Virus record (IMG/VR): IMGVR_UViG_3300025769_000917
Span: 1-22,642 of that record
Length of the DNA stretch: 22,642 nt
Source: a virus
Direction: 5' to 3' (one strand)
The translations under genes and the position numbers were made by a program. The notes below the pieces were generated by a model. The model worked only from the letters and a program-made list of their open reading frames with translations, ran no database searches and was not told the origin of the DNA. This document shows, piece after piece, positions 5,955 through 8,657 of the stretch; position 1 is the first letter of the stretch, and each line of letters begins with the position of its first letter.

Positions 5955-5996
5955 ATGTGGTGGGTGGGAGGCAACTTTAATTACTTACTGACATGA
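5955..5996 (+). CDS. Possible 13-codon leader peptide coupled to psbA
   Basis: A very short frame reading [13 protein letters not shown] fills the gap between the secreted protein and psbA. Its TGA overlaps the psbA ATG as ATGA, the same junction used by most neighbouring genes. A GGGAGG (5966-5971) lies inside it, 21 bases before the psbA ATG, which is too far for direct use as a ribosome binding site. Ribosomes translating this frame would end exactly at the psbA start. Such an arrangement could arise by chance, so confidence is low. Confidence 0.35.
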
Positions 5997-7072
5997 CTGC
6001 AACAATTGCACTTAAAAGGAAGGAGAGCGCATGGGAGCAGTTTTGTTCCTGGGTGACCTCCACCAACAACCGTCTTTATGTAGGCTGGTTTGGGGTTCTG
6101 ATGATCCCCTGCTTGCTAGCCGCCGCTATTTGTTTTATCGTGGCATTCGTTGCCGCGCCACCTGTTGACATCGATGGAATCCGTGAACCTGTCGCAGGCT
6201 CCTTGTTGTATGGAAACAACATTATTTCGGGAGCCGTCGTTCCGAGCAGCAATGCCATCGGACTACACTTCTACCCAATTTGGGAAGCTGCTTCACTTGA
6301 TGAATGGCTGTACAACGGGGGTCCATTCCAACTCGTCACTTTCCACTTCCTCATTGGCATCTATGCTTACATGGGACGTGAGTGGGAACTTAGCTATCGA
6401 CTAGGAATGAGGCCTTGGATCTTTGTTGCGTACTCTGCTCCTGTCGCCGCTGCGACTGCTGTGTTCCTTGTTTACCCGTTTGGACAAGGTTCTTTTTCTG
6501 ATGCTATGCCCTTGGGGATATCCGGCACCTTCAACTACATGCTGGTGTTCCAGGCTGAGCACAATATTCTTATGCATCCTTTCCACATGCTGGGTGTGGC
6601 CGGCGTTTTTGGTGGGTCTCTTTTCTCAGCTATGCATGGTAGCCTTGTTACGTCTTCGCTTGTTCGTGAAACGACTGAAGACATGTCACAAAATTATGGT
6701 TACAAGTTTGGGCAAGAAGAGGAGACTTATAATATTGTCGCTGCTCATGGTTACTTCGGTCGGCTTATTTTCCAATACGCCAGTTTTAATAATTCCCGTA
6801 GTCTTCACTTCTTTCTTGCTGCCTGGCCTGTTGTAGGTATTTGGTTTGCTGCATTGGGTGTGTCTACGATGGCATTTAATCTCAACGGTTTTAACTTTAA
6901 CCAGTCCCTGCTGACCAATGATGGTCGAGTGGTGAATACCTGGGCTGATATCCTGAACCGTGCTAACTTGGGATTTGAGGTGATGCATGAGCGTAATGCT
7001 CATAACTTCCCCTTGGATCTCGCAGCTGCTGAGACCACTGCAGTAGCTTTGAAAGCTCCTTCTATTGGTTAA
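5993..7072 (+). CDS. psbA: Photosystem II reaction-centre protein D1
   Basis: A full-length 359-residue D1. Five thylakoid membrane helices can be followed. Key residues sit at canonical numbers: H118, E130 (GREWELS), Y161 (TyrZ), D170, E189, H190, H198, H332, E333, H337, D342 and A344. The C-terminal extension after A344 ([15 protein letters not shown]) is the part removed by host CtpA so that A344 can bind the Mn cluster. E130 is the form found in high-light cyanobacterial D1 isoforms. The N-terminus ([17 protein letters not shown]) differs from typical host copies, and [15 protein letters not shown] replaces the usual VES of the stromal loop. The gene was acquired from a cyanobacterial host and keeps photosynthesis running while host D1 turnover fails. 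No intron is visible. Confidence 0.98.
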
Positions 7073-7077
7073 TTACA

Positions 7078-7254
7078 ATGGCTTACAACCCTGGACATGG
7101 TATGGTCATCACTTATCAAAGTGCTTGGCATACTACTAACAATCCTCTGTCGTCTTCTTTCATTCCTGGCAACCGCGATTATTACGCAGGTGATACTCGC
7201 AACTCTGCTTTCTATGAAGATCTGGAAGACGCCTGCAGCGCTCTTCGTCCGTAA
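7078..7254 (+). CDS. Hypothetical protein downstream of psbA, 58 aa
   Basis: An open frame five bases after psbA: MAYNPGHGMVITYQSAWHTT at the start, GNRDYYAGDTRN in the middle and an acidic end FYEDLEDACSALRP. It has no membrane segment, signal peptide or recognised domain. The ATG has no clear Shine-Dalgarno, so translation probably depends on ribosomes ending psbA. The sequence is not low-complexity and fills the space up to a hairpin at 7279, so it is probably a real small gene co-transcribed with psbA. Confidence 0.68.
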   Translation: MAYNPGHGMVITYQSAWHTTNNPLSSSFIPGNRDYYAGDTRNSAFYEDLEDACSALRP

Positions 7255-7264
7255 CAACTAAGCA

Positions 7265-7354
7265 ATGTCGTCCGTTCATTCGCTATTCGCAAATGGCGAA
7301 CGCATGTCACCTGATCATGGAACGGGGGTCAGGTACTTTCATTCAGAACAATGA
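7265..7354 (+). CDS. Possible 29-aa peptide ending HGTGVRYFHSEQ
   Basis: A short frame MSSVHSLFANGERM...FHSEQ whose TGA overlaps the next ATG as ATGA. It contains the 9-bp hairpin at 7279-7300 and the first copy of the direct repeat at 7321-7338. There is no ribosome binding site. It may be a leader for the following gene or simply non-coding structured RNA; the two readings cannot be separated here. Confidence 0.3.
   Translation: MSSVHSLFANGERMSPDHGTGVRYFHSEQ
7279..7300 (+). repeat. Strong 9-bp hairpin downstream of psbA
   Basis: TTCGCTATT pairs with AATGGCGAA around a CGCA loop: nine consecutive pairs with one T-G wobble. No T-run follows, so it is not a standard terminator. It may be an mRNA stabiliser or processing site separating psbA transcripts from the capsid transcript. 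The function is inferred; the pairing is seen directly. Confidence 0.6.
7321..7338 (+). repeat. Direct repeat copy 1 (AACGGGNGTCAGGYACYT)
   Basis: An 18-base element that matches 7467-7484 at 15 of 18 positions; two of the differences are T/C and one is G/A. The purine-rich GGGGGTCAGG lies 17 or more bases before ATG 7351, so it could be a distant ribosome-loading element. This copy does not have the pairing partner that copy 2 has. Confidence 0.5.
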
Positions 7355-7461
7355 CTCAAGTCGAATTGGATGCCCGTGTTCGGGAGCAACAGGCAGCTCA
7401 AAAAGCTGCTAAGCTTAAGTATCGCGGCATTGCTTACAAATCTCACGCTACTAAATTCTAA
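7351..7461 (+). CDS. Small DUF4278-like protein, 36 aa
   Basis: The frame reads MTQVELDARVREQQAAQKAA, a charged Ala/Gln-rich helix, followed by KLKYRGIAYKSHATKF. The KYRGxxY piece resembles the start of DUF4278 proteins, which are widespread in cyanobacteria and their phages and have no known function. It is placed between psbA and the capsid gene, with an ATGA junction to the upstream peptide. The resemblance is a short motif only. Confidence 0.55.
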   Translation: MTQVELDARVREQQAAQKAAKLKYRGIAYKSHATKF

Positions 7462-7466
7462 GTAGC

Positions 7467-7484
7467 AACGGGAGTCAGGCACCT
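7467..7484 (+). repeat. Direct repeat copy 2, left arm of hairpin I
   Basis: The second copy of the 18-base element. Here GGGAGTCAGG (7470-7479) also forms the left arm of a 10-bp stem with 7495-7504, so this copy is embedded in RNA structure. Confidence 0.5.
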
Positions 7485-7571
7485 CAGTGTCGGACCTGGC
7501 TCCTCTTGGCATTGGCCCCTGCGGGGACACCCTTTGCCGAAACCGGTTTAGGTAAAGACCATAATTTTACC
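7470..7571 (+). promoter_or_regulatory. Structured leader region before the capsid gene (hairpins I-III)
   Basis: This lies in the longest gene-free stretch of the window (7462-7631). Hairpin I: GGGAGTCAGG 7470-7479 pairs with CCTGGCTCCT 7495-7504 (10 pairs, two of them G-T, which hold only in + strand RNA). Hairpin II: TTGGCA 7506-7511 pairs with TGCCGA 7535-7540 and encloses CCCC-TGC-GGGG at 7516-7526. A 10-base palindrome AAACCGGTTT follows at 7540-7549. Hairpin III: GGTAAA 7551-7556 pairs with TTTACC 7566-7571. I read this as a structured 5' leader or small RNA of the capsid transcript. No convincing gene is present; a GTG-started 22-codon frame at 7487 is not supported. Confidence 0.55.
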
Positions 7572-7581
7572 AGAAAAAATT

Positions 7582-7606
7582 TAATACTCTGAACGTTCAG
7601 AGAGGT
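7582..7606 (+). promoter_or_regulatory. Candidate promoter for the capsid transcript
   Basis: TTAATACTCTGAAC lies about 45 bases upstream of the capsid ATG. TAATAC matches the first six bases of the T7 promoter and also resembles a bacterial -10 box, and the position matches T7 phi10. There is no good -35 box, and the rest does not match the T7 consensus. It overlaps the palindrome at 7587. This is a candidate only. Confidence 0.3.
7587..7602 (+). repeat. Perfect 16-bp palindrome upstream of the capsid gene
   Basis: CTCTGAACGTTCAGAG is its own reverse complement, so it can bind a dimeric protein as DNA or fold in RNA. Its last three bases are shared with the next inverted repeat (7600-7624), so the two folds compete. 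Confidence 0.65.
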
Positions 7607-7624
7607 ATCATTATTCAACCTCTC
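7600..7624 (+). repeat. 7-bp hairpin just before the capsid start
   Basis: GAGAGGT (7600-7606) pairs perfectly with ACCTCTC (7618-7624) around an 11-base loop, ending seven bases before ATG 7632. The left arm holds the only good Shine-Dalgarno-like sequence (AGAGG), but it is 26 bases from the ATG in the linear sequence. The fold would hide it or alter access to the start. Confidence 0.6.
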
Positions 7625-7631
7625 CATAAAA

Positions 7632-8657
7632 ATGGCTAACACTATTCTTACTCCTGGTGGTTCGCTGAATAGCAACCCCTCTACTATTGCTCTGTCCCAA
7701 GGCTACAATGACGGTAGCACCACGGGAAAGTACGCCACGTATCTGAAGCTGTTCAGCGGCGAGATGATCAAGGCTTACGAGTCCCAGACGATCGCTAAAG
7801 GTACTGTCCAAAACCGTACCCTGCGTAACGGTAAGAGCCTCCAGTTCATCTACACTGGACGCATGGAAGCTGCCTACCACACCCCTGGCACCCCTATCCT
7901 TGGTAGCGGTGATCCTCCGGTGGCTGAGAAGACCATCCTCATGGATGACCTGCTTGTCTCAAGCGCATTCTTGTATGATCTCGATGAGACTCTTGCTCAT
8001 TACTCGCTGCGTAGCGAGATCTCTGCTAAGATCGGTCATGCTCTGGCTGAAGCTTATGACAAGAAGGTCTTCCGTTCTATTGCTCTGGCTGCACGTCAGG
8101 CACACCCCATCACTGCCGCTCCTGGTCCCGAGCCTGGCGGTTCTGTGATCAACCTTGGCACTGGTAATGCCTTCAACGCTCAGGCTATCGTTGACGCTTT
8201 CTTTGAAGCTGCTTCGATCCTGGACGAGAAGAACGTTCCTACCCAAGGTCGTACCGCTGTGCTGTCCCCGCGTCAGTACTACGCTCTCGTGTCTCAAGTT
8301 GACACCAACATTCTGAACCGTGACTTCGGTGCTACCTCTGGCAGCCTGAACAGCGGCGAAGGTCTGTATGAGATTGCCGGTATTCAAATCCGTCGTAGCA
8401 ACAACCTGCCCTTCAACGCTGGTACTGTTGCTCGCGTGAACGGTGAGAACAACGATTACAGCGGCAACTTCACTGGTCACTGTGGTCTGATCTATGGTCG
8501 TGACGCTGCTGGCGTTGTCGAAGCCATCGGTCCTTCCGTGCAAACCACTGGCGGTGACGTGAAGGCAATGTATCAGGGCGACCTGATCATCGGTCGTCTT
8601 GCCATGGGCTGCGACTGGCTGAACCCCGCTGCTGCTATTGAACTGACTGCAGTTTGA
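7632..8657 (+). CDS. Major capsid protein, T7 gp10-like (HK97 fold)
   Basis: 341 residues, close to T7 gp10A (345). It forms the icosahedral head on the scaffold. Recognisable segments are the N-arm (LSQGYNDGSTTGKYATYLKLFSGEMIKAYE, residues about 22-51), the region around LQFIYTGRMEAAYHTPG, the long spine helix YSLRSEISAKIGHALAEAYDKKV, and the P-domain piece LSPRQYYALVSQVD. The family is clear. The coding style is richer in C/G-ending codons (CTG, ATC, GGC) than in the tail genes, as expected for the most highly translated gene. The ATG is preceded by a structured leader rather than a close Shine-Dalgarno. No frameshift site for a gp10B form was seen at the 3' end. Confidence 0.96.
   Translation: MANTILTPGGSLNSNPSTIALSQGYNDGSTTGKYATYLKLFSGEMIKAYESQTIAKGTVQNRTLRNGKSLQFIYTGRMEAAYHTPGTPILGSGDPPVAEKTILMDDLLVSSAFLYDLDETLAHYSLRSEISAKIGHALAEAYDKKVFRSIALAARQAHPITAAPGPEPGGSVINLGTGNAFNAQAIVDAFFEAASILDEKNVPTQGRTAVLSPRQYYALVSQVDTNILNRDFGATSGSLNSGEGLYEIAGIQIRRSNNLPFNAGTVARVNGENNDYSGNFTGHCGLIYGRDAAGVVEAIGPSVQTTGGDVKAMYQGDLIIGRLAMGCDWLNPAAAIELTAV

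Follow-up and report, generated by a model that had tools for sequence, protein, structure and literature searches.

The array of RNA structures in front of the major capsid protein gene is, we are virtually certain, a conserved multi-domain structured RNA leader of the plus strand that belongs, in marine T7-like cyanophages, to the capsid gene. These phages rank among the abundant viruses that infect marine picocyanobacteria, and an RNA element of ~155 nt before the capsid gene across most of them offers a new handle on late gene expression without the known tools of T7. We gathered 312 loci from named phages and IMG/VR contigs and examined the sequence 5' of the capsid gene; of the 278 cyanopodovirus loci that extend far enough upstream, about 260 have this architecture in front of the capsid gene, 20 named phages among them. 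The element is a structured mRNA leader and may well be processed. Neither Rfam 15 nor the annotation of the phage records examined here includes it, and no published description of it was found in open-access PMC.

Setting and fold of the array

The window, i.e., the whole stretch of DNA that was analysed (22,642 nucleotides), is a 22.6-kb fragment of a T7-like cyanophage, and a virus record (G000) has the same 22642 bases. Its features are as follows.

Across the window: ribonucleotide reductase, portal, scaffold, tail tubes and internal proteins, named from ORF reading and the order in relatives
5993-7072: psbA, named from ORF reading and the order in relatives
7078-7254: 58-aa ORF between psbA and the capsid gene
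7270..7334, plus strand: glutamine-II riboswitch (RF01704, 50.1 bits, gathering score 33), a neighbouring, separate element
7351..7461, plus strand: 36-aa ORF of the downstream-peptide type behind the riboswitch, its stop 8 nt before the first hairpin
7470..7504, plus strand: 5' module, hairpin type H, with a 10-pair stem (7470-7479/7495-7504) and the 15-nt loop CACCTCAGTGTCGGA (7480-7494)
7505..7507, plus strand: U-rich linker, a putative processing junction and, by the jump in identity, a recombination junction
7508..7538, plus strand: hairpin D2, with stem 1 (GGCA..GG/CC..TGCC), stem 2 (CCC/GGG) and the YNMG-type loop TGCG (7520-7523)
7540..7549, plus strand: palindrome D3, AAACCGGTTT
7551..7571, plus strand: hairpin D3b, GGTAAA (7551-7556)/TTTACC (7566-7571)
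7587..7602, plus strand: perfect palindrome D4, CTCTGAACGTTCAGAG, a hairpin with the self-complementary 4-nt loop ACGT
7600..7624, plus strand: stem D5, GAGAGGT/ACCTCTC (arms 7600-7606/7618-7624), with a 3-nt overlap with D4 and its end 7 nt before the capsid ATG
7632..8657, plus strand: major capsid protein gene, its product at most 79% identical to annotated cyanophage major capsid proteins

The array (7470-7624) thus sits between the riboswitch with its 36-aa ORF and the capsid gene. The ORF translates to MTQVELDARVREQQAAQKAAKLKYRGIAYKSHATKF, and its YRGxxY ending is common to relatives. The glutamine-II riboswitch lies directly upstream of the array in the window and upstream of the capsid gene in 11 of 20 named cyanopodoviruses, but it is a separate fold that ends before the array starts. 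A search of 7462-7631 against Rfam 15 returned no family at the curated score, the weak matches lying far below their gathering scores, and the RF01704 match ends at 7334, leaving the array unmatched. A known Rfam element was therefore dismissed, as gathering and relaxed thresholds alike return only the upstream riboswitch.

The five successive stems described in the earlier note were all recovered at 7470-7624, and the folding of 7440-7660 is more stable than that of dinucleotide shuffles (z = -3.1; 1 of 200 shuffles was as good). Two details of that description need amendment. The second stem, taken to be branched, is rather one hairpin in which the bulged C7516 faces ACAC at 7527-7530 in an asymmetric internal loop, and the fourth and fifth stems cannot both form in full because GAG at 7600-7602 is common to D4 and D5. 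Within the H loop (7480-7494), an inner CC/GG closes an octaloop. A sixth stem that the note did not list, GCTACT/AGTAGC at 7447-7452/7461-7466, encloses the stop codon of the 36-aa ORF. No uninterrupted stem in the fold exceeds 10 pairs, as compared with the long irregular duplex of T7-type RNase III sites.

The plus-strand scan of the array found no promoter and no terminator. The one candidate intrinsic terminator of the GC-rich hairpin and U tract kind lies on the minus strand, at D4, and none was seen on the plus strand. The presumed promoter sequence of the Syn5 polymerase had no match in the window with up to 3 mismatches and was rejected as a candidate. The suggestion of an independent small RNA finds no support: the plus strand carries neither promoter nor terminator, and the leader precedes the capsid gene wherever the flanking sequence suffices to tell. 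The earlier note had also said that no capsid-proximal ribosome binding site is open. The capsid start does lack a Shine-Dalgarno sequence in the window and in 214 of 218 relatives; as a structural argument this is weak, since such a sequence is also missing from 11 of the window's 15 other putative starts. The absence is usual in this genome, hence not diagnostic, and was discarded as a sign of structure-driven initiation.

Conservation and distribution

Some 50-70 bases of the region are 80-90% identical (blastn) among phages whose capsid proteins are only ~48-55% identical, and this high identity of the leader despite the divergence of the protein indicates a non-coding constraint. An alignment of the first two hairpins in 40 divergent H-type relatives displays compensatory changes in 18 of the 22 pairs of the core (7470-7539), so that the array can be regarded as a leader or processing site rather than spacer, as had been proposed, and the absence of compensating changes that would have spoken against it was not encountered. 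Cells with both sides changed numbered 185 versus 64 in shuffles, and the covariation score was 0.559 versus 0.203, a value reached by none of 500 shuffles. The signal collapses when partners are shifted by 1-3 columns, and RNAalifold recovers the same fold with no structure given as input. The loci are phylogenetically related and the counts given here do not represent independent events, which is partly addressed by the module-exchange count and the swapped-strand null described below. Metagenomic contigs may hold assembly errors; the named phages give the same pattern.

All 10 pairs of the H hairpin bear compensatory changes across the 40 relatives, while its loop is near-invariant. D2 was located by structural search in ~260 of 278 loci, in 153 distinct versions, and is composed of stem 1, a single 5'-side C opposite AUAC, ACAC, ACAA or AUAA, stem 2 of 2-5 pairs and a loop that is nearly always of the YNMG kind (UACG, UGCG, CACG, UAAG, UGAG, CAAG, CGAG). 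Across these versions both stems covary and the bulged C, the AYAM and the YNMG loop are retained; the constancy of C and AYA is partly built in, as the search demanded them, and both are also invariant in the 40-relative alignment of H-type loci. The selected form is the plus-strand RNA because G-U cells greatly outnumber A-C cells: 141 versus 9 in stem 1 of D2 (153 distinct relatives) and 57 versus 12 in the stems of the first hairpin (61 distinct), six of the 12 falling at the closing pair. The claim that the wobble pairs hold only in plus-strand RNA is thus statistically sound for D2 stem 1, the first hairpin and D4.

A covariance model of the first two hairpins matches the window once (82.7 bits) and has exactly one match in each of 17 of 20 complete phage genomes, in 16 of them before the capsid gene. 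The sole match in Syn5 is weak and does not lie before the capsid gene, and the searched genomes of P60, S-CBP2 and S-CBP42 gave no match. Multiple copies per genome were not found with this model in the window or the complete phage genomes. The P60/S-CBP2/S-CBP42 clade has an altered order with extra hairpins before D2, and in L095, L099, L100, L321 and L426 the 5' module and D2 are separated by one more hairpin, by a stretch of GTTAAAAACC or AAAAACC and by a palindrome. These loci, representing that clade and some IMG/VR contigs, are a second architecture of the same leader. An occurrence outside cyanophages was also considered and dropped, the sequence upstream of the capsid gene of Roseobacter phage CRP-125 being free of model matches. 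In 257 Gb of cellular genomes there are 119 exact copies of the 15-nt H loop, versus ~480 expected by chance according to our own estimate; a host-derived element was rejected, since the loop is rarer than chance in cellular genomes and only one occurrence carries the array. The single cellular-genome record with the full array is a contig of the single-cell genome of Synechococcus sp. AG-670-B23 (L492, R1 47.2 bits), in which the carrier is possibly a co-sorted phage.

Exchangeable 5' module and the 3' half

The position before D2 is occupied by interchangeable modules. Among the 260 loci, 110 are of type H and 132 of type T, always 11-19 nt (mostly 12-15) before D2. The H stems have ~6-10 pairs in 61 distinct versions, with the loop CACCUCAGAGUCGGA or a close variant. 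The T module of relatives consists of a T-arm with the T-loop motif GUUCRA or GUGCRA, a T-stem and an acceptor-like closing stem. Pairs 1-6 of the T-stem are 95-100% Watson-Crick, and the closing stem reaches at least 5 bp in 85% of cases versus 24% when 3' strands are swapped between phages, the closing-stem figures coming from a restricted test that took the place of an over-permissive earlier one. A D-loop-like GG accompanies U55 but not G55 (p = 9e-9, uncorrected for relatedness), as in the elbow of a tRNA. In at least four loci the slot holds an intact tRNA according to ARAGORN, namely tRNA-Gly in L007 (NATL1A-7; RF00005, 70.5 bits) and L228, and tRNA-Trp in L077 and L080. ARAGORN found no tRNA cloverleaf in the window, where the H hairpin fills the slot. 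The distance from the module end to D2 is almost constant across H, T and tRNA modules.

Phages with different 5' modules become nearly identical exactly at the linker, where the identity leaps from ~50% to 98-99%. L032 (T) and L033 (H) share 99.3% identity from D2 through to the start codon, versus 52% upstream, and over the same stretch L030 (T) and L088 (H) share 97.9%, versus 49% upstream. Judged by these sequence comparisons, the 5' modules are exchanged by recombination at the linker, and on a capsid tree of 213 rows at least 36 changes between H and T are required, versus a mean of 71 with shuffled labels.

Downstream of D2, relatives carry CGTCTAGACG, CGTCATGACG, CCGTCGACGG or other sequences in place of D3, most of them still palindromic. 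The GGTAAA/TTTACC form of D3b belongs to the clade of the window, and most other clades have GTGG-GANAGA-CCAC with the covarying stems GTCTG/CAGAC, GTCG/CGAC and GCTG/CAGC. A possible likeness of D3b to the start of the T7 gene 10 leader was set aside as probably chance. D4 is a perfect palindrome with a half-length of at least 5 in 186 of 224 unique regions versus 8% in shuffles, and these regions contain 78 different palindromes (half-length of at least 4) with 13 different central tetramers. Mismatches in 76 distinct palindromes, read as plus RNA, comprise 15 U-G, 2 C-A and 4 others. Among distinct 4-nt-loop hairpins selected on the stem without regard to the loop sequence, self-complementary loops make up 12 of 15 at a stem length of 6+ and 25 of 41 at 5+. 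As this is far above the chance of 1 in 16, the D4 sequences suggest that two copies pair with each other, by their loops or as a duplex, in the manner of dimerization sites. The same 3-5 nt overlap of D4 and D5 is seen in 62 of the 81 relatives having both stems. D5 itself, present in part of the relatives, is only weakly to modestly above shuffles and is therefore treated as clade-limited; it was rejected as a universal stem.

The retroviral dimerization initiation site likewise has a hairpin whose loop stays self-complementary as the sequence changes, and it too lies in a leader upstream of structural genes (PMC7357161). D4 would be similar in that its loop appears to be kept self-complementary through sequence change before a structural gene, whereas here the molecule is the mRNA of a DNA phage and the hairpin, a putative dimerization element, is a perfect palindrome with a 4-nt loop. 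Dimerization of mRNA in a phage thereby becomes testable.

Proposed processing and protection, and competing readings

We hypothesize, with somewhat less than even confidence, that the junction between the 5' module and D2 is an RNA-processing site comparable to tRNA punctuation, which would leave a structured, protected 5' end on the capsid mRNA. What the sequences show is the fold, its strand and place, its single copy per genome and the exchange of modules; cleavage, protection of the end and dimerization are proposals. A cutting site is an economical answer because a tRNA, a mimic or a hairpin sits a fixed few bases before the conserved D2, and the processing site considered in the earlier note would fit with the interchange with tRNA-like modules and the intact tRNAs. 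The late polycistronic transcript would be cut at or beside the U-rich linker, with the 5' module as the recognition or context element for cutting. Where the module is a tRNA or a T-arm with an acceptor stem, the host tRNA maturation enzymes RNase P and RNase Z may act; in the intact-tRNA phages, tRNA maturation alone would yield an mRNA starting 2-3 nt before D2. At the H hairpin, the type of the window, the same position would be cut by another enzyme, for which RNase E acting in the linker is the simplest candidate. The product would be a capsid mRNA carrying the stable D2 at its 5' end and then D3b and D4. Such an end would protect the message against 5'-end-dependent attack by RNase E and against 5'-to-3' degradation by the exonuclease RNase J, and could make it abundant and long-lived. 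Beside the ribosome landing site, two capsid mRNAs, or two states of one leader, may pair through the self-complementary loop of D4. Host RNase E is raised in P-SSP7 infection (PMC9692554), and a shielded 5' end would therefore pay; cyanobacteria possess RNase P, RNase Z and RNase J, and the RNase J of Synechocystis attacks RNAs without a 5' triphosphate (PMC10989914).

Known systems resemble this arrangement in part. tRNA punctuation is found in polycistronic transcripts of organelles and in some bacterial operons. As there, tRNAs or tRNA-like folds stand here between coding genes, intact tRNAs in at least four loci, and their excision would define mRNA ends, but most of the phages have a T-arm with a closing stem or an unrelated hairpin, followed by a dedicated, covarying D2. 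In T7, RNase III sites and the gene 10 leader provide structured, processed leaders before late genes, the capsid gene included. The cyanophage element is also a structured leader before the capsid gene of a T7-like phage, but it appears to have no long RNase III-type duplex, its folds are different, tRNA-like alternatives exist and each leader contains several covarying domains. PhotoRC-II, wcaG, manA and glnA are cis-regulatory RNAs in cyanophage leaders (PMC2864571, PMC9964418) and as such also structured, but they precede metabolic or photosynthesis genes rather than the capsid gene and the array does not match them. Should the 5' module prove to be a processing cassette, the group would supply dozens of natural exchanges among tRNA, mimic and hairpin with which the requirements for tRNA-like treatment can be tested directly.

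Several observations speak against processing. The H hairpin showed no resemblance to tRNA where tested, the near-invariance of its loop suggests a role beyond generic cleavage, and the P60, S-CBP2 and S-CBP42 clade has the altered order and no model match. The function of the capsid leader could instead be translational. A possible but rather doubtful reading is that capsid translation is set by the binding of a protein, from phage or host, or of the ribosome to D2 and the 5' module, with D4 and D5 as a switch of alternative stems near the start codon. Protein-binding sites typically show small, unchanging unpaired motifs carried on variable stems, as seen here, D4 and D5 share nucleotides in most relatives having both, and one copy per genome, with no Shine-Dalgarno sequence in the leader, directly precedes the most abundant structural gene; an operator leaves unexplained, however, why an intact tRNA or T-arm stands in for the H hairpin, D5 is clade-limited, and the want of a Shine-Dalgarno sequence is shared by most starts in this genome. 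We consider it improbable that the whole array is purely a 5' or intercistronic stabiliser or insulator against nucleases from either side, with no specific cleavage in the linker: the dense, stable folds and the interchange of unrelated folds at the first position agree with this, but a generic stabiliser need not retain a 15-nt loop, the bulged C with AYAM, the YNMG loop or the tRNA elbow correlation.

Two further explanations move the function away from the plus-strand RNA. That D4 is an intrinsic terminator of antisense transcription, not a plus-strand element, is quite unlikely; on the minus strand a U-rich tail follows the hairpin in the window as well as in 93 of 168 distinct relatives, versus 11 with a tail on the plus strand, but the excess of U-G over C-A among the D4 mismatches means that pairing is kept in the plus strand, and termination has no need of a self-complementary loop. 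Conservation at the DNA level, i.e., a promoter for a phage RNA polymerase or a recombination or packaging site, is hardly credible and already largely refuted: the junction is a recombination breakpoint between modules, but unrelated sequences share the slot, the stems covary, G-U exceeds A-C, and the presumed Syn5 promoter sequence finds no match in the window with up to 3 mismatches.

Processing at the junction may also be one part of a composite, dimer-forming capsid leader, a speculative proposal that we rate as improbable. The tRNA, mimic or H module would be an exchangeable cassette for the same host machinery, and D2-D3-D4 would form a symmetric mRNA-mRNA dimer by means of two self-complementary hairpins. 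Were it true, the processing, stability and dose of the capsid mRNA would be coupled, and the H hairpin would be a functional substitute for a tRNA without tRNA sequence.

The near-invariant H loop suggests a specific partner beyond generic cleavage. The loop CACCUCAGAGUCGGA may resemble the peptidyl-transferase strand of 23S rRNA, CACCUCGAUGUCGG, a likeness that was set aside as probably due to chance. The H loop of the window (7480-7494) contains the anti-Shine-Dalgarno core CACCUC, which may also be chance. In the T-type loci L094, L006, L091 and L093, the small ORF under riboswitch control has its stop codon within the 5' strand or the middle hairpin of the tRNA-like module, and translation of the peptide could disturb the fold of this module or be coupled to it.
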